64,000 bases of DNA from Candidatus Methylomirabilis sp. (GCA_020722725.1 DYKG01000001.1:62001-126000); one strand, 5' to 3'. Shown: positions 1,688 through 13,495, numbered from the stretch's first letter. Numbers and translations are program-made. Notes: generated by a model from the letters alone, not told the origin.

Positions 1688-1743
1688 GCGCTTCGACTCT
1701 GCTTCGCTGAAGCTGCGCAGCTCAGCGACCGTAAAAGACGGCT
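1688..1743 (+). repeat. R2 dispersed repeat, copy 1 (divergent)
   Basis: GCGCTTCGACTCTGCTTCGC, then GCAGCTCAGCGACCGTAAAAGACGG by position, resembles the other R2 copies (TTCGAC...GGCTCAG...GTAAAAGACGG). It touches the stop codon of the PP2C-like gene at 1742. Elements of the CATTGAGCTTGTCGAAATG type are widespread in bacterial intergenic DNA; the function here is unknown. Confidence 0.55.
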
Positions 1744-2545
1744 ATTTCAGGTTTTCTTCGGCCAGCTTTTTTAACTGGGCGAAAATAGAATTTTCTTTCA
1801 GGCTCAAATAGACTTTTCGCAGCAACCACAACCCGGTCATGCTGAAAATTGCGCCCAGAGAAGCAGGCAGCCATAGGGGAATGCTGAATTGCCGGTCGAA
1901 ATCAGTGAAAAGTTCTAATTCTTTGGGGCAGCCCAGGCTTCGGTCAGTTGATTCAATCTCGATCAGCAGCATAGTGCGGTCATCGCCGTCATAATCTCTT
2001 TCCAGTTCACTCCAGAAAAATTCCAGTTTTTCACCGACCGGTTCACGGCAAAGATCATGGGTCAGCCCGGCAAAATATTGATTTTTCAGAGCCAGGGCCA
2101 CCCCTTCGCTGCTTAGCATGAATGCTGCACTCGGCTCGACAGGCAGACTGACCAGACGAATGTTTGGTATTCGGTCGGCGATTTTTCCACAGAAGCGGGC
2201 AGCTGATTCTACCCGGCACGAACCGGACCACACCAGAGAAATTTGCTGCCGATGTATCCACAGTGCGGCAAAGCCTTTTATCGAGTCGATCAAGTGTGCG
2301 CCATTGCGCTTCTGCGTATCGGCAAAAGCCTCTGCCAATTTTTGCGGTGCTTCTTCAGCTGAAAAAACATGAGCGTTTTCCAGCACCAGGTCTGAAGAAA
2401 GTTGGAGCAGTTCTTTGGCGGCCAGTGCTCCTTCCGGCCCGGTGCCGTCGGCAATCATGGCCAGACCGCCCCTTTCATTGATTAGCCAGAAATCCTGATT
2501 GTGATCTCTGATTGCCCCGGTCGCAGTACGCAACTGGCATTTCAT
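1742..2545 (-). CDS. PP2C-family protein phosphatase-like protein with C-terminal membrane segment
   Basis: 267 aa. Features typical of PPM/PP2C metal-dependent Ser/Thr phosphatases are the N-terminal G-AIRDHNQDFW, then GGLAMIADGTGPEG (the usual DG metal motif) and, near residue 190, DYDGDDRTMLLIEIE, matching the terminal D-N/D-x-T motif. The middle of the domain is shortened and poorly conserved, so activity is uncertain although the main metal-binding Asp positions are present. A hydrophobic helix near residues 228-247 (PLWLPASLGAIFSMTGLWLL) suggests membrane tethering with the phosphatase domain in the cytoplasm. It starts 2 nt after the stop of the secretion ATPase gene, so the two are almost certainly cotranscribed. 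That context suggests dephosphorylation linked to the secretion or pilus machine, which is inference. Confidence 0.75.
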   Translation of the reverse strand: MKCQLRTATGAIRDHNQDFWLINERGGLAMIADGTGPEGALAAKELLQLSSDLVLENAHVFSAEEAPQKLAEAFADTQKRNGAHLIDSIKGFAALWIHRQQISLVWSGSCRVESAARFCGKIADRIPNIRLVSLPVEPSAAFMLSSEGVALALKNQYFAGLTHDLCREPVGEKLEFFWSELERDYDGDDRTMLLIEIESTDRSLGCPKELELFTDFDRQFSIPLWLPASLGAIFSMTGLWLLRKVYLSLKENSIFAQLKKLAEENLK

Positions 2546-2547
2546 GC

Positions 2548-5500
2548 TCAGATTCCTGCCGGGGCTTTGTGGTCAAGCAGTCGGTTGTGCCCGTTTACCA
2601 GCTGCTGAACTTTTTCTACCACATCAAGCAGACCTTTTGAGCGCAGACCTCCAACCAGCGAGTCAACAAACACCAGTTTGACCTTCGGGTGCATCGGCTC
2701 AACGTAGCCAGTGCTGCGGTCGTCGCCGAGAATCCAGTAGGTAAGACGGTCACAGTAGGGAACCCAGTGGGAAAAATCGCTGAAATCTGCATAAGCATTG
2801 AGCTTTGGAATAACGATCTGCGGCACGTATTCGATCTGGTTGGCGGCGTTGATGTAAATGCGCTCATTTTCTGGAACAATTGGTGCAATTTTCAGATTGG
2901 GCAGCGTCACTTTGAATCTTGCCTTGCCAAAATGATTCAGCGCGATTTTTTCGGCCATCGCTTCCCATTTCAAGTTGATGTCGCGAATTTCCTGGGAATA
3001 GGTGAATAGGGCTTTCTGAAATATTTCATTGCTCTTGAGCGCTTCAATGGCATTTTCCAGGGCAAGAAAATGGGAGTGATTGAACAGGGTGCCGAGCATG
3101 AAGCCCAGGCCATTATTGAGGAAATGTCGGCGCGAGATGTGCTGCGCCGCTTTGGCTTCTTCAATGTGCAGACGGTCACGAATCAGCCAGATGGTTGCCT
3201 GGCGAGCGGTTTCCAGGGCATCCGGCGCTTTCCACAGGTCTGACTGTTCGTTGAACTGCCATGGCTTGAATTTTTGCGGGTAAGCATTTTCGACAACCTG
3301 GTACAGGTTCTGGTTGAACAGGTCGAGCAGTTTTGACAGCCCATTCATGTGGAATTCCCTGATTGAAATACGTTTTGGAATATCTTCCACCGGAATGCCG
3401 AGTCGTTCTTCAATCAGCCAGCGGGTGGCTTTTTGCGCGGTGTCAAAGCGGTCTTCCTGGAACCAGATCAGTGGTTCTTCTTCGATGAACTGCCATTGCT
3501 TGAAGACATTTGGAAAAACGGTATTGACCAGTTTGTAGCAGGAGTCATCAAAAAGTTCGAGTAGTTTGCCAAGACCGTTATCCTTGAAAATGTGACGATT
3601 CATCATGGCGGGCAGATCACCCCGGCTGCAGCCAAGTTTCTCGGTCATCAGCCATTCAAGAGCTTCACGGGCACAGAAATTTTTGTCGTTGCTTTCAAGC
3701 CAGGGTTCAATTTCGCCAAACTGCCACGGACGATATTCGCCGGGCATAACCATTTCAATTAACCTGAAGCGCTTTTGCCCAACCCACAGCCATATCTGCT
3801 CTAATCCGGCATCAATCAATAGTTTCTCAGTGAAAAATTCAGGAAGCTCTTCAGGCTTTTGCACGCGTGGTTTGATTTTATCAATTAAAAGTTTAATTGA
3901 AATGGTTGCCCATTTTTCAGCAATTGTCTCATCGCTGAAAATGAATTCGGGCAACTGCCCTCCTTTATCCTGAATCATGCGAATAATTTCGGCTATGTCT
4001 GAATCCAGCATTTGTTCAGGATAAGAACCGAAGAATTTATAAAATCCTTCTTTGTCGCGTTTCAGAGACTGCATCTGCATAAGCTCTTTTACCTGAAGAA
4101 CCGGCAGATGAAGCTTTTCTGCCAGCTTTTCATTGCTGAAAAACATGTATTCTTTTTCGAGTGATGCAATGATGGCTTTTAAAATCGGGTTGTCAGGGTC
4201 GATGACCGGCGCCTGTCTTTGCGGTTGTTGCTTAATCGGCGAATCAGCCTGCGGCAGAGTGGTGCCCATGGCCGCAGATTGTGGCATCATCACCGGCAGG
4301 ATCATTCCTGCTTGAGCAGGCATTATTCCTGAAAAAGGAATTCGTTTTTCTTCTTCATCAGAAGGAGTTACATATACGACTTCTTCCAGTGTCGATTCAC
4401 CGACAAGGGCTCTTTCAATCGCCATTTCGCGCAGAGTTCGCATTCCTTCAAGGCGGGCGATGCGCTTGATTGCCATTTCGGTTCCGCCTTCCATAATTAC
4501 ATCTTTCATCGAGGAGGTCATGACCATGGTTTCGTAAACTCCGGTTCGGCCATAGGTGCCGGTCTGATTGCATTCTTTGCATCCGGTGCCTTTGTAGAAT
4601 TTATGTCCGATTACCTTGCCCGGGGTCAGGCCAAGGCGCTGAATGATGGTCTGGCTGGGCCTGTATTCGGCTTTGCAGCTGGGGCAGATGCGGTGCAGAA
4701 GTTTCTGGGCGACGACGACGCGAACTGCAGCGGTGACCAGATACGCGGGAACACCCATGTTGATCAGACGGTTAATACTTGCCGGGGCATTGTTTGTGTG
4801 CAGGGTTGAAAGAACCTTGTGCCCGGTAAGCGAGGCTCTGAACGCAATTTCAGCCGTTTCAAGATCGCGGATTTCGCCGACGAGGATGATGTCAGGGTCT
4901 TGTCTTAGGGCGGTTCGCAGGCCGCTGGCAAAGTTCAGACCAATTTTGTCATTGATCTGAACCTGGGTAATCCCGCTGATTCTGTATTCTACAGGGTTTT
5001 CAATGGTAAAAATATTGATTTCGGTGCTGTTGAAATATTTCAGCATTCCGAACAGGGTGGTTGTTTTACCCGCGCCCGTGGGACCGGTTACCAGAATGAG
5101 ACCGTAAGGTTCATCAAGAGCTGCTTTCAGCCTGGCAAGGTCGTCGTTGAAAAAGCCGAGATTATCGAGGTCGAATTTCGATTCGCGTTGCAGAATTCTC
5201 AGAACCGCCTTTTCGCCGAGCAGGCTGGGAACGGTGCTGACGCGGAAATCGATCTCCTTGTCCTGCATTTTGACTTTCAGGCGGCCGTCCTGTGGCAGGC
5301 GGCGCTCGGCAATATCGAGATGCGAAAGAATTTTTATGCGGCTGATCAGCGGTGGGAGAAGGCTGATCGGGCCGGTCATCGCATCGTGCAGTATGCCGTC
5401 AACGCGAAATCTGACTAGAAGTATTTCTTCTCTTGGTTCTACATGAATGTCAGAGGCGCGTTTTAAAATCGCCTGTTTAAAAATTGCATTTAAAAATTGA

Positions 5501-6045
5501 ACGACCGCGCCCTGCTCTGAGGTTTTGCGAACCACTTCAACGCCGGTATCGCCCGTTTCGCTGATTTCTTCTTTGCTGCCATCTCCGCTGATCGAAAAAC
5601 CTTCCCAGGAATAGAGCTGGCGAACTGCAAGCTCTATCTGATTTTTCGGAGCAATCAGGACTTCTAGTTTGCATTGGGTCAAAAAGGCAATCATGTCGGT
5701 TGCCATTATATCGAAAGGATCTGCCATGGCGACGGTCAGTCGATTGCCTTCACGCTTGATCGGAATCATTTTGTATTGCTTCGCCTGATATTCAGGTATA
5801 AGCGAAAGAATTTTGGCATCGACCTTGATATTGGTCAGATCGATGACAGAAACACCGAGAAACTCGGCCCAGAGGTCAAGAACCTGCTTCTCAGACATGA
5901 AACCAAGTCTGACAATAATATTTTCAAGCCTTTCAAGGGTCTGAGCCTGAATGTTTCTCGCTTTTTCAAGCTGATCTTCACTGAGCAGGCCTTTCTGCAG
6001 CATCAGGCTTTCAACTGTCTGTTTGGTTCCCTGAATGTTATTCAT
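2548..6045 (-). CDS. GspE/PilB-type secretion or pilus assembly ATPase with PWQF-repeat C-terminal extension
   Basis: 1165 aa, about twice the usual 550-600 of GspE/PilB. Residues 1-150 are an MshEN/T2SSE N-terminal domain. Residues 185-560 are the hexameric ATPase: Walker A GPTGAGKTTT at 321-330, Walker B region DPDIILVGEIRD, His-box segment GHKVLSTLHTNNA, and a zinc tetra-cysteine motif (Cys 454, 457, 489, 492). A Pro/Gln/Met-rich linker (560-615) follows. A helical, winged-helix-like stretch spans about 618-720. Three repeats of about 78 residues lie at 745-1000, each with P/KxWQF, WLI/M-x-x+LG/H and NGL-x-x-L/M-L. A unique 135-residue tail ends the protein. The ATPase should power type II secretion or type IV pilus assembly at the inner membrane. 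The repeats resemble a family I recall from hypothetical Firmicutes proteins, but I cannot name it. The start has GGAGGAA just upstream. It lies 17 nt after the BsuPI-domain gene and 2 nt before the PP2C gene. Confidence 0.9.
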   Translation of the reverse strand: MNNIQGTKQTVESLMLQKGLLSEDQLEKARNIQAQTLERLENIIVRLGFMSEKQVLDLWAEFLGVSVIDLTNIKVDAKILSLIPEYQAKQYKMIPIKREGNRLTVAMADPFDIMATDMIAFLTQCKLEVLIAPKNQIELAVRQLYSWEGFSISGDGSKEEISETGDTGVEVVRKTSEQGAVVQFLNAIFKQAILKRASDIHVEPREEILLVRFRVDGILHDAMTGPISLLPPLISRIKILSHLDIAERRLPQDGRLKVKMQDKEIDFRVSTVPSLLGEKAVLRILQRESKFDLDNLGFFNDDLARLKAALDEPYGLILVTGPTGAGKTTTLFGMLKYFNSTEINIFTIENPVEYRISGITQVQINDKIGLNFASGLRTALRQDPDIILVGEIRDLETAEIAFRASLTGHKVLSTLHTNNAPASINRLINMGVPAYLVTAAVRVVVAQKLLHRICPSCKAEYRPSQTIIQRLGLTPGKVIGHKFYKGTGCKECNQTGTYGRTGVYETMVMTSSMKDVIMEGGTEMAIKRIARLEGMRTLREMAIERALVGESTLEEVVYVTPSDEEEKRIPFSGIMPAQAGMILPVMMPQSAAMGTTLPQADSPIKQQPQRQAPVIDPDNPILKAIIASLEKEYMFFSNEKLAEKLHLPVLQVKELMQMQSLKRDKEGFYKFFGSYPEQMLDSDIAEIIRMIQDKGGQLPEFIFSDETIAEKWATISIKLLIDKIKPRVQKPEELPEFFTEKLLIDAGLEQIWLWVGQKRFRLIEMVMPGEYRPWQFGEIEPWLESNDKNFCAREALEWLMTEKLGCSRGDLPAMMNRHIFKDNGLGKLLELFDDSCYKLVNTVFPNVFKQWQFIEEEPLIWFQEDRFDTAQKATRWLIEERLGIPVEDIPKRISIREFHMNGLSKLLDLFNQNLYQVVENAYPQKFKPWQFNEQSDLWKAPDALETARQATIWLIRDRLHIEEAKAAQHISRRHFLNNGLGFMLGTLFNHSHFLALENAIEALKSNEIFQKALFTYSQEIRDINLKWEAMAEKIALNHFGKARFKVTLPNLKIAPIVPENERIYINAANQIEYVPQIVIPKLNAYADFSDFSHWVPYCDRLTYWILGDDRSTGYVEPMHPKVKLVFVDSLVGGLRSKGLLDVVEKVQQLVNGHNRLLDHKAPAGI

Positions 6046-6062: not shown

Positions 6063-6815
6063 TTATTTGACCTCGATGCGGTATGAGCGGCGTTCAAGTG
6101 ACTCGCTGAATAATCTGGTGTCATGTCTTCCATAGAGATGAAAATTAACATGCCCGGTGCGCTTGGCTTTAAACACGATAGTCAGATCTTTGTCGCGTTT
6201 GATCAGTTCATGAACTGCTATACGGTTGTCGTTATACTCATAGGCAATCTGCCATTCGACTTCCTGCTTGCCTGAATAGCGCGGCACTACGATTTCAAAA
6301 AAGCTGTTGAGCTTGACTTCGATTACTTCAGTCTTTTTAATTTCATCAGGCAGAAGGCGAATCGAAAATGTATTGGTAACCAGGGGTCGGGGGCTGATCA
6401 TCGCCATTGCATAGATTTTGTAAACCCCCTGTGGAAGCGGCTGATTATTGCGGTCGCGTGACTGCCATGACATTTGAAAGGTCATGGGCTCTCCGCGTTT
6501 TAGCGGAATTGAATGGGGTGAATCAGCCCGGCTAAGCCCCTGCGACCAGCGATAAATCTGCAGGCCTTCGTGAAAAACCGCGTAATCCCAGTGCTGGCCG
6601 GTTGGGTAGTGAATCTGCACGGTTTTGTCGGTGCGATTGCGTATCTGAATTGTGAAAGTGGCCGTGTTGCCGGCAATGATTTCTGTTTTTTCGGGCCAGG
6701 CCTTAACTTCCAGGTCTGCCGGGTTGACGAATTCCCAGGGCCGCATCGCGGCTTGCAATGTGCCAGTTGCCAGTAACAGAAATATTATGAAAAGACCGGC
6801 GAATTTTTTTATCAT
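6063..6815 (-). CDS. Secreted protein with BsuPI-like domain and chagasin-like C-terminus
   Basis: 250 aa from MIKKFAGLFIIFLLLATGTLQA, a clear signal peptide. Residues about 30-145 match the BsuPI (intracellular proteinase inhibitor) Ig-like fold: N-R-T-D-K, then HYPTGQHWDYAVFHEG, IYRWSQGL and PLPQGVYKIYA follow the family's order. Residues about 160-250 form a second beta-rich unit ending HLYGRHDTRLFSES...YRIEVK, which recalls chagasin-type inhibitors (GxxxxxFxYxR), but this second assignment is weak. It likely acts in the periplasm or outside the cell. The longer upstream frame lacks a signal sequence, so this start is preferred. No Shine-Dalgarno is seen; TATCAT lies 6 nt before the ATG, suggesting a leaderless mRNA. 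First gene of the unit with the secretion ATPase and PP2C-like protein. Confidence 0.75.
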   Translation of the reverse strand: MIKKFAGLFIIFLLLATGTLQAAMRPWEFVNPADLEVKAWPEKTEIIAGNTATFTIQIRNRTDKTVQIHYPTGQHWDYAVFHEGLQIYRWSQGLSRADSPHSIPLKRGEPMTFQMSWQSRDRNNQPLPQGVYKIYAMAMISPRPLVTNTFSIRLLPDEIKKTEVIEVKLNSFFEIVVPRYSGKQEVEWQIAYEYNDNRIAVHELIKRDKDLTIVFKAKRTGHVNFHLYGRHDTRLFSESLERRSYRIEVK

Positions 6816-11064: not shown

Positions 11065-13311
11065 TTAAATCAATTTTTTAAACATGGTAAATTTCGACAG
11101 GGTTTTGAGTAACCAGAAATTCCTGCCCTGAACGTCATCGGGGCCAAACATTGATTTAACCTTGCCTTCTGAGTCAATGGAGACTTTGTATTCTTTGCAG
11201 TTGCTTATATCTTTGTAGATTTCACTGCGCAGTTCTTTGGCAAATTCATCTGATTTAACCGAAGCGACAACTTCAGAGTTGATCTGTTCACTTATGTAGT
11301 CAAGGTTATAAGTGCCGACAACCCCAATTTTTGCGTCGAAAACCCAAGTCTTGGCGTGCAGTTTCTGTTTGCCGTAATAGACGAAAATCCGGGCATTGGG
11401 AATCTGCGAAAGAATCCGTTTCCAGTCAGCATAAAACATTGCCTGAGTTGCCAGACTGTCGGTAGAATAAGGGCTGTTGGTAAGAATTTTTACGCCGACG
11501 CCACGTCTGCCGGCGCGTTGCAGGGCCGCAAAAATTCTTTCGGTTAATACTACGTAAGGATTCTGAATCAGCACTTCTTTGCGGCAGCCATCGATGAATT
11601 TAACCATCTGGTCGGTAATGTCGTTGCGCGGCCCGCCGAGAGAATGCTTGTCGATTATCTTGGCCTCGGCTTCAACAGAATTACTGAATGGATCGAAGCC
11701 GGCGTAGCTTCTCATGTTTTTATATTGCGCCAGTTCGGTCAGCGATTCTTTTGCACTTTCAAGGTATTTTTTATCAACATTGGGAGTAACCGTAAAACGT
11801 TCGTTTAAAATGTGGCTGAACATTGTATCTCTGGCGGCCATGAGGTGTGGACCCATAATGTCGATGTTACCCCAGAGTTCGTCACCGATTTTGAAAGTTT
11901 TTAGTTTGGCAAATTCTTCATCAAAAGCGAAATCAAGCTGTTTTGCAATTTCCGGGCAGCGGATAATCACATCGCAATCCCGGTAACATTCAGGGTGATC
12001 GATGGCATCAACAAAATAATCTTTTGAAATGTTGCGGCCACCGATAACTGCGTATTCATCGTCGATAACCAGAATCTTGTCATGGTTTGAGGCCATTGCC
12101 TTGCGAATGTCGGTAAACATGGTAACCAGATTGGTGTGAACCGGGTTAAACACCTTAACTTCACAATTTGGCAGTTCGGTAAGTTCCTGCAGGAAATCCT
12201 GGCCAAGAAGTTTGCGGGTAAGTTGCTTTGTTCCGCGGGCATCGAGCATCAATCTTATTTTCACGCCTTCACGGGCTTTTTTCAGCAGCATTCCCAGCAT
12301 TGACATGCCAAAAATGTCCTTATCCATGATGAAATACTGTACGTCGATGCTTTGTCTGGCTTCGTTCATCAGTTTCCAGCGTGAATACCAGGCTTCGCTG
12401 TTAGTGTATCTGAGACTTACTTCAGATGTAGATCTTGAAAGCCCGGTGGCGGGTACGAACTTGTCGAAAGTAATGTCAACCGGTGGGGCAAACTGGGCAC
12501 CAAGGTTTTCATAAGCAAGCTGAAATTTTTCAAACTTATCCTGGTTGCTGTTGAATTTAAGCAGTTTGCTTACGTAACCAACCCAGCGCGTAGCTTTAAC
12601 CGGGAATGCAAGCCAGGAAGTATCAAGGTATTTACTGTAACTTTGATGAGAAGCGGCATAAGAATCGTTGAGAATCTGTTTCCACTTCAGGTGGCTCTTG
12701 CTGGCCTGATAGTAAGAAATATGCTGACTGGCAAGCCCGGCGTATTTTGAGTTCGGACGATTCTTAACTATTTCGTTAAGGATGGCCGCAGATGTTTTCT
12801 GATCGTCTTTGAGCAGGTCATAAGCTTTTGCCAGCTCATATCTGGCCATATCAACAAACCTGGAGCCCGGGTTGCTTTTGATGAAGGCGGTTAAAAGTTT
12901 CATCATCGCATCGGGCGTTTTGCGCCCTTTTTCTGACCAGAGCTGGTCGAGAATGCGTTTCAGGCCTTCCGGTATCTGCTCAATGGATCGGGTCGCAGTG
13001 GCCCCGAAGTTGTCAACTCCTGCCAGGTCAACGTCACCGGTGTCATTATCGACCGCATTGCCTGTTGTTCCATCAAGAACTTCGTCTTTCGAACGTTCAA
13101 GATTTCCTTCATAAGCCTTTTTGGCATCTAGATACGTGTTAAGAAGGCTCTTGATTTCTGCATCGGATTTCTTTTCGAGAACCGCATTACGGTATGCATT
13201 GTATGTTGAAACATAGCGTTCGTAATCGGCTCGGGGATCAGCTGAAACAACTGATGATACCGCTGCGAACATTAATACCAGCAGCAGAACAAAAGACAAA
13301 TTTTTCTTCAT
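11065..13311 (-). CDS. Secreted phospholipase D-like protein (two HKD motifs)
   Basis: 748 aa from MKKNLSFVLLLVLMFAAVSS, a signal peptide. Residues 28-75 are a charged helical hairpin (DYERYVSTYNAYRN...), residues about 110-230 a helical, TPR-like region. Two PLDc domains follow, with catalytic motifs HDKILVIDD (His410) and HAKTWVFDA (His652), each fitting H-x-K-x4-D, plus trailing GGRNIS and GTYNLD elements. The family includes cardiolipin synthases, phospholipases D and nucleases; a secreted, soluble form with an N-terminal extension fits a periplasmic phosphodiesterase or phosphatidyltransferase. The start is fixed by GGAGG followed by CGGTATT and ATG; the frame is open 8 codons further but lacks a signal there. 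A TATAAT lies at 13350-13345 upstream. It is convergent with purD and shares its terminator. Confidence 0.88.
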   Translation of the reverse strand: MKKNLSFVLLLVLMFAAVSSVVSADPRADYERYVSTYNAYRNAVLEKKSDAEIKSLLNTYLDAKKAYEGNLERSKDEVLDGTTGNAVDNDTGDVDLAGVDNFGATATRSIEQIPEGLKRILDQLWSEKGRKTPDAMMKLLTAFIKSNPGSRFVDMARYELAKAYDLLKDDQKTSAAILNEIVKNRPNSKYAGLASQHISYYQASKSHLKWKQILNDSYAASHQSYSKYLDTSWLAFPVKATRWVGYVSKLLKFNSNQDKFEKFQLAYENLGAQFAPPVDITFDKFVPATGLSRSTSEVSLRYTNSEAWYSRWKLMNEARQSIDVQYFIMDKDIFGMSMLGMLLKKAREGVKIRLMLDARGTKQLTRKLLGQDFLQELTELPNCEVKVFNPVHTNLVTMFTDIRKAMASNHDKILVIDDEYAVIGGRNISKDYFVDAIDHPECYRDCDVIIRCPEIAKQLDFAFDEEFAKLKTFKIGDELWGNIDIMGPHLMAARDTMFSHILNERFTVTPNVDKKYLESAKESLTELAQYKNMRSYAGFDPFSNSVEAEAKIIDKHSLGGPRNDITDQMVKFIDGCRKEVLIQNPYVVLTERIFAALQRAGRRGVGVKILTNSPYSTDSLATQAMFYADWKRILSQIPNARIFVYYGKQKLHAKTWVFDAKIGVVGTYNLDYISEQINSEVVASVKSDEFAKELRSEIYKDISNCKEYKVSIDSEGKVKSMFGPDDVQGRNFWLLKTLSKFTMFKKLI

Positions 13312-13495
13312 AATACCGCCTCCGAGTTTGAGCATAACAAAATTATTATACTACTATCCGAGAAATTCGAAAGGGTACCGACCAACGTTTTTTGAGTGTT
13401 GTTAAAAGAACCTGTATTTGCCCGAATCGCTGCGAGTCAACCTGCATTTCGCGGCGATTTTGAACAGGCTTATTTGTAAGGTGGAAAAAAACGGC

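Follow-up and report, generated by a model that had tools for sequence, protein, structure and literature searches.

A PilB/GspE-type motor ATPase fused to a conserved tail of DUF4046-type repeats in one family of Riflebacteria

The window, meaning the whole stretch of 64,000 nucleotides that was analysed, contains an open reading frame on the minus strand (2548..6045) that encodes a PilB/GspE-type ATPase of 1165 amino acids with an unusually long C-terminal tail. These coordinates had been placed correctly in an earlier reading made from the sequence alone; the strand, which that reading had not given, is minus (6045 -> 2548). Seventeen bases before the ATPase gene lies the gene for an exported BsuPI-domain protein (6063..6815, minus strand; PF12690, 47.2 bits), and this gene was adjacent upstream of the ATPase in 10/10 family genomes examined. 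A gene with weak similarity to PP2C phosphatases (1742..2545, minus strand) starts 2 bases past the ATPase stop codon. Its product matched the PADLOC model PDC-M21C at 1.5e-5 and a Stp1-like NCBIfam model at 0.0049, the latter far below the cut-off, gave no match to Pfam, and by eye has a likely C-terminal membrane helix; a gene similar to it follows the ATPase in 6/10 family genomes. In close relatives, hisS and other genes follow in the same region. Two further genes of this region encode exported or exported-looking proteins: a 4383-aa repeat-rich protein whose gene lies downstream of hisS, on the same strand and just outside the window (L033 596-13747, G000:C61), and, at 11065-13335 of the window, a 756-aa phospholipase D-like protein that carries two PLD motifs and whose synteny is conserved in three close relatives. 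A defence-system reading of the locus was rejected, the only match for the motor being one to its P-loop (mad8, 3.2e-4).

Profile matches and conserved motifs delimit a motor core of residues 1-560 (4366..6045, minus strand), which opens with an N-terminal MshE-like motif. The MshEN domain (PF05157) matched residues 63-146 with 68.5 bits, and the T2SSE domain (PF00437) matched residues 176-556 with 439.5 bits against a cut-off of 24.9, covering profile positions 3-368 of 370, such that the curated threshold for PF00437 membership is passed over the full length of the domain. The Walker A sequence GPTGAGKT occupies exactly residues 321-328 (5062-5085 of the window), as had been read from the sequence, the Walker B glutamate E391 and the His box H416 are both in place, and the zinc-binding Cys4 motif consists of C454, C457, C489, and C492. 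The glutamate, the histidine, and all four cysteines are invariant in 7 full-length orthologues. Among solved structures, the chains nearest to the core are PilB proteins of type IV pili (3jc8 and 5tsg, with E-values down to 9.5e-146). The description of the protein as a complete GspE/PilB motor is borne out by these results, which support a core that is both complete and under selection.

The core is followed by a tail of about 600 residues, which is an integral and conserved part of the protein. The tail begins with a variable linker (residues 561-615; 4201..4365, minus strand) that is among the least conserved parts in the orthologue comparison, and pLDDT values are below 50 for the 19 residues with which the modelled tail opens. 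A helix-turn-helix (HTH)-like segment (residues 616-680; 4006..4200) and a helical connector (residues 681-741; 3823..4005; pLDDT about 86-92) precede a repeat array that spans residues 742-1006 and comprises about 3.5 copies of a 77-78-residue unit. The array consists of a half repeat with a PWQF end (residues 742-776; 3718..3822), repeat 1 (residues 777-853; 3487..3717), repeat 2 (residues 854-931; 3253..3486), and repeat 3, which is without the WQF end (residues 932-1006; 3028..3252). The remaining residues, 1007-1165 (2551..3027), form a long helix (about 1007-1039) and a C-terminal domain, which is better conserved than the rest of the tail; all of these features lie on the minus strand. 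In an ungapped self-comparison with 40-residue segments and BLOSUM62, the repeats scored 104 (offset 78), 77 (offset 77), 71 (offset 155), and, for the half repeat, 58 (offset 77), while all other segment pairs scored 28 or less. The three repeats first proposed are therefore real and can be refined to a half repeat and three units. An AlphaFold2 model of the tail built with 21 sequences is all-helical and confident over roughly residues 25-430 of its 570 (pLDDT mostly 80-95), with the repeats forming a helical array at pLDDT values of about 80-95. The repeats are acidic overall (net -7).

Sequence searches with the tail alone gave no significant match in Pfam, PHROGs, NCBIfam, or the PDB. The modelled fold likewise had no significant match in the PDB and viral libraries, where the best E-values were 0.074 (designed PPR-type helical repeats) and 0.21 (unnamed proteins). 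The segment at residues 616-680 had been described as winged-helix-like, a proposal that finds weak support: the segment is helical in the model and a similar one is present in the sister motor described below (hmmsearch i-Evalue 2.7e-6, in a target set of two sequences), but it has no significant family match. A relationship to PDB entry 8vd6 was rejected, as this sole match below 0.01 sums five copies in a repeat protein and the single-copy matches have E-values above 80.

The tail is present in 21 of 24 sampled genomes of the window's family of uncultured Riflebacteria, with one copy in each, and the three family genomes that lack it are no more than 84% complete. Seven other families of the phylum, sampled with 16 genomes, yielded no tail in either a sequence search or a profile search, and no second copy of the repeats was found elsewhere in the phylum. 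These counts dispose of two explanations that the sequence-only reading had raised: an assembly error joining two ORFs is ruled out by the independence of the 21 genomes, and an ordinary phylum-wide extension is ruled out by its confinement to a single paralogue in one family, where it is near universal. In 19 further genomes the orthologous open frame is intact and encodes 1136-1239 aa; an additional copy is split over two contigs. This split copy, whose tail is 78% identical, comes from a public MAG titled 'Erysipelotrichia bacterium' (SABV01000115.1); the genome groups with Riflebacteria in the search tool's family assignment, and its title looks like a misclassification. The architecture of the tail is constant across the family. 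Among the 19 intact relatives, identity is 51-73% for the tail versus 74-89% for the core, and the mean column identity of the C-terminal domain is 80%, the highest in the tail; these values argue that the tail is under constraint.

In a phylogenetic tree with some long branches, in which other joins are unsure, the tailed motors form a clade (support 100/100) with a 715-aa motor from Riflebacteria family f6 (genome G031, L075 5965-8112). This sister motor shares 47% core identity with the tailed motor, and in both proteins an HTH-like segment follows the core, but the sister has neither the repeats nor the C-terminal domain. That it carries only the HTH-like segment suggests that the tail grew stepwise: this segment would be the oldest part, and the ancestor of the family would later have gained the repeats and the C-terminal domain. 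We conclude that the tailed motor is a genuine and conserved fusion that is specific to its lineage. Both the motor and the repeat family are of known kinds; their combination appears to be undescribed within the searches made, and the literature searched yielded no account of a tailed PilB and no detailed treatment of Riflebacteria motors. A scan of 84,980 species genomes covered patterns of close relatives only, and a T2SSE-DUF4046 fusion may exist elsewhere.

The sequence-only reading had described the tail as unique. The repeats are not confined to the tailed motor: they are homologous to DUF4046 (PF13255) proteins encoded on plasmids of Bacilli. A tblastn search of plasmids with the tail returned 53 records, 50 of which are from Priestia and several of which are annotated as DUF4046. 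The best plasmid match, from Alicyclobacillus fastidiosus (tblastn 6e-25), shares 30% identity with the tail over 257 residues and is itself recognised by PF13255 (1.7e-10). Alignment of the tail with DUF4046 by hhalign gave a probability of 99.9% and an E-value of 1.3e-33, and shuffled controls scored far lower. On the strength of this homology to a PF13255-recognised protein, the repeats of the Riflebacteria tail are of the DUF4046 type, although the curated model falls short of them: PF13255 (cut-off 22.8 bits) matched nothing in the window genome at an E-value as high as 10 and none of the 21 orthologous tails at an E-value of 5. Transfer from Bacilli is one possibility for how the repeats reached Riflebacteria. 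A phage origin was considered and rejected, no match having been found in phage records or viral contigs. DUF4046 genes adjoin ger spore-germination genes in 6/8 plasmid loci (five from Priestia and one from Alicyclobacillus), whereas no ger genes are near the loci of Pontibacillus and Aneurinibacillus. The genes beside ger receptor genes, which include those of Priestia megaterium, P. filamentosa, and Alicyclobacillus (L057, L058, L059, L093, L094, L095), occur in both orientations. It is possible that the DUF4046 protein is a regulator or accessory of germinant receptors; no mention of DUF4046 was found in the literature searched.

The C-terminal domain yielded no reliable model, either within the tail or by itself (pLDDT 27-43, with 43 for the domain alone), and no relative was found in Pfam, PDB, plasmid, or viral searches. 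Its PYCD motif hinted at a resemblance to MmcB-like DNA repair proteins (PF06319), for which a PD-(D/E)XK fold would be expected. An MmcB consensus sequence was used only to retrieve annotated MmcB genes. In the profile comparison, a short motif ending in PYCDxxxY/F aligned with the C-terminal domain. The hhalign score of 25.2 was above those of all controls (19.5 for the best of 150 column-shuffled profiles and 11.5 for the reversed profile), but it is marginal, corresponding to a probability of only 12.7%. Furthermore, the catalytic E-x-K motif of MmcB is not kept in the alignment, and a search of 40 genomes of the phylum with the curated PF06319 model came back empty. A weakly MmcB-like, catalytically dead domain is thus only a lead.

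The genome of the window, a Candidatus Riflebacteria MAG of 3.6 Mb, encodes about ten PilB/GspE-type motors besides those of the PilT and Tad types. The main PilB, encoded at C61:31k with PilT and a pilin-like gene as neighbours, scores 709.3 against the TIGR02538 equivalog cut-off of 675.65, whereas the tailed motor scores 603.8 and falls below it. This sub-threshold score, an identity of only about 45% to the main PilB, and the fully supported clade point to the tailed motor being, by homology, an accessory (second) PilB-type extension motor with a lineage of its own. The two paralogues also differ in their c-di-GMP motif. The c-di-GMP-binding MshE-type ATPase carries two motifs of the form RLGxx(L)(V/I)xxG...LxxxLxxQ (PMC5013675). 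The corresponding model, NF053729, scores 36.8 bits with the tailed motor (cut-off 38) and 72.8 with the main PilB; in the tailed motor, motif I has TVE in place of RLG and motif II has F in place of the final Q. Judged from these residues, the c-di-GMP motif is degenerate in the tailed motor and intact in the main PilB. Six PilC/GspF-type platform loci and two Tad loci were identified in the genome, none of them on C61, the contig of the tailed motor, and no pilin or platform gene was found near the tailed motor. Two of the six PilC/GspF-type loci are without an adjacent motor, and several motors, including the main PilB, are without an adjacent platform.

Other motors of these genomes also carry additional domains. 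At 7776-10844 of L035 (G000:C62), a 1022-aa PilB/GspE motor is fused to a C-terminal part that resembles a histidine kinase (HATPase_c, 5.6e-18; an AtoS-like match starts at residue 815), with homologues in L096, L099, L100, L101, and L102; long motors of 1067-1069 aa are also present in family f5. The phospho-accepting His of the H-box is Asn in 5/6 aligned homologues and the ATP-binding boxes are kept, so that this protein is a motor joined to an apparent pseudo-kinase. Two loci on G000:C71 encode a 764-aa GspE-type motor with an N-terminal GAF domain (L086 6691-8985) and a 933-aa PilT-type ATPase behind at least five HEAT repeats (L087 4573-7374).

By homology, the tailed motor would drive a pilus, and we place about even confidence in its being an alternative PilB that shares platforms with other motors and whose helical tail serves to position or switch it. 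The core would form the usual PilB hexamer and engage one of the platforms with genes in other parts of the genome, as the main PilB also has to do. Each subunit would then bear a helical repeat arm ending in the conserved globular domain. Our guess is that this arm docks another protein, perhaps one of the two operon products (BsuPI or PP2C-like) or else a pole or regulator protein, and that docking would decide when or where the tailed motor runs. A protein ligand is favoured over nucleic acid because the repeats are acidic. The degenerate c-di-GMP motif here and the intact one in the main PilB suggest that the C-terminal arm has taken over control from c-di-GMP and would stand in for an input apparently lost by the tailed paralogue. 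On this reading the tail would act as a built-in control module, as the sequence-only reading had proposed. PilZ control of PilB, by comparison, acts at the N-terminal domain (PMC8389850).

The main rival is a tail that binds nucleic acid. If the HTH-like segment, the DUF4046 repeats, and a decayed nuclease-like end all contacted DNA, the motor could be linked with the uptake of DNA or with the regulation of genes for its own system, a reading that we regard as unlikely. It draws on three weak hints: the HTH-like segment shared with the sister motor; the position of DUF4046 beside ger in all six Priestia and Alicyclobacillus loci, divergently in two, as regulators often are; and the MmcB score above its shuffled and reversed controls. 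Each of these is offset, as the HTH-like segment is without a credible PDB match, ger is not near in Pontibacillus and Aneurinibacillus, and the MmcB alignment has a low probability, lacks the catalytic motif, and finds no curated-model counterpart in the phylum; the acidity of the repeats also speaks against it. A more specific form, in which the same three parts couple filament assembly to DNA such that the motor handles DNA or reports its state to transcription, is improbable.

Two other readings give the tail or the motor a different role. As a structural adaptor, the tail would cap or stabilise the hexamer or bind the platform, conferring specificity for one PilC without a regulatory role. 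This genome has several motors and platforms without a paired counterpart, and specificity must arise somewhere, which together with the constant tail architecture fits such a role; however, the described partner surfaces of PilB/GspE (PilZ, PilM/GspL) lie in N-terminal domains (PMC8389850) that the tailed motor has kept, and no co-varying platform was identified, so that we consider this reading rather doubtful. It is very improbable that the tailed motor no longer drives a filament and instead acts in the cytoplasm, as a scaffold or a signalling ATPase recruited from the PilB family, together with the products of the BsuPI and PP2C-like genes. The absence of pilin and platform genes nearby and the conserved linkage with the genes for these two products would be explained, but all catalytic and zinc motifs are invariant, and the main PilB also has no adjacent platform, such that isolation from platform genes is normal here.

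Control of PilB/GspE motors normally comes from separate proteins or from c-di-GMP acting at the N-terminus. With about ten motors in a 3.6-Mb genome, several of them carrying different added domains (HATPase, GAF, HEAT), this lineage offers a natural set for studying how motors share platforms. The fusion also provides a functional context, a motor, for the DUF4046 repeats, which are uncharacterised and are found mostly beside germination genes on Bacilli plasmids.

Compared with known systems, the DUF4046 proteins of Priestia, Alicyclobacillus, Aneurinibacillus, and Pontibacillus contain the same repeat, A(T)xWLIEExL...NGL..L...YPxxFKPWQF. In Bacilli plasmids these are stand-alone proteins of 250-346 aa, whereas the Riflebacteria repeats are fused to a motor and are missed by the Pfam model. 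PilB, the extension ATPase of type IVa pili (TIGR02538; 3jc8, 5tsg, 5zfr), aligns with the whole core of the tailed motor (residues 13-560), and MshEN, Walker A, Walker B, and Cys4 are common to both. Known PilB proteins of this length class end at about residue 560-590, whereas the tailed motor continues into its tail, scores below the equivalog cut-off, and has a degenerate c-di-GMP motif. Thermus PilF (6f8l), which also powers type IV pili, has extra domains as well, but its extra part is N-terminal, the match spanning PilF residues 338-884 of 913, whereas that of the tailed motor is a C-terminal repeat tail.
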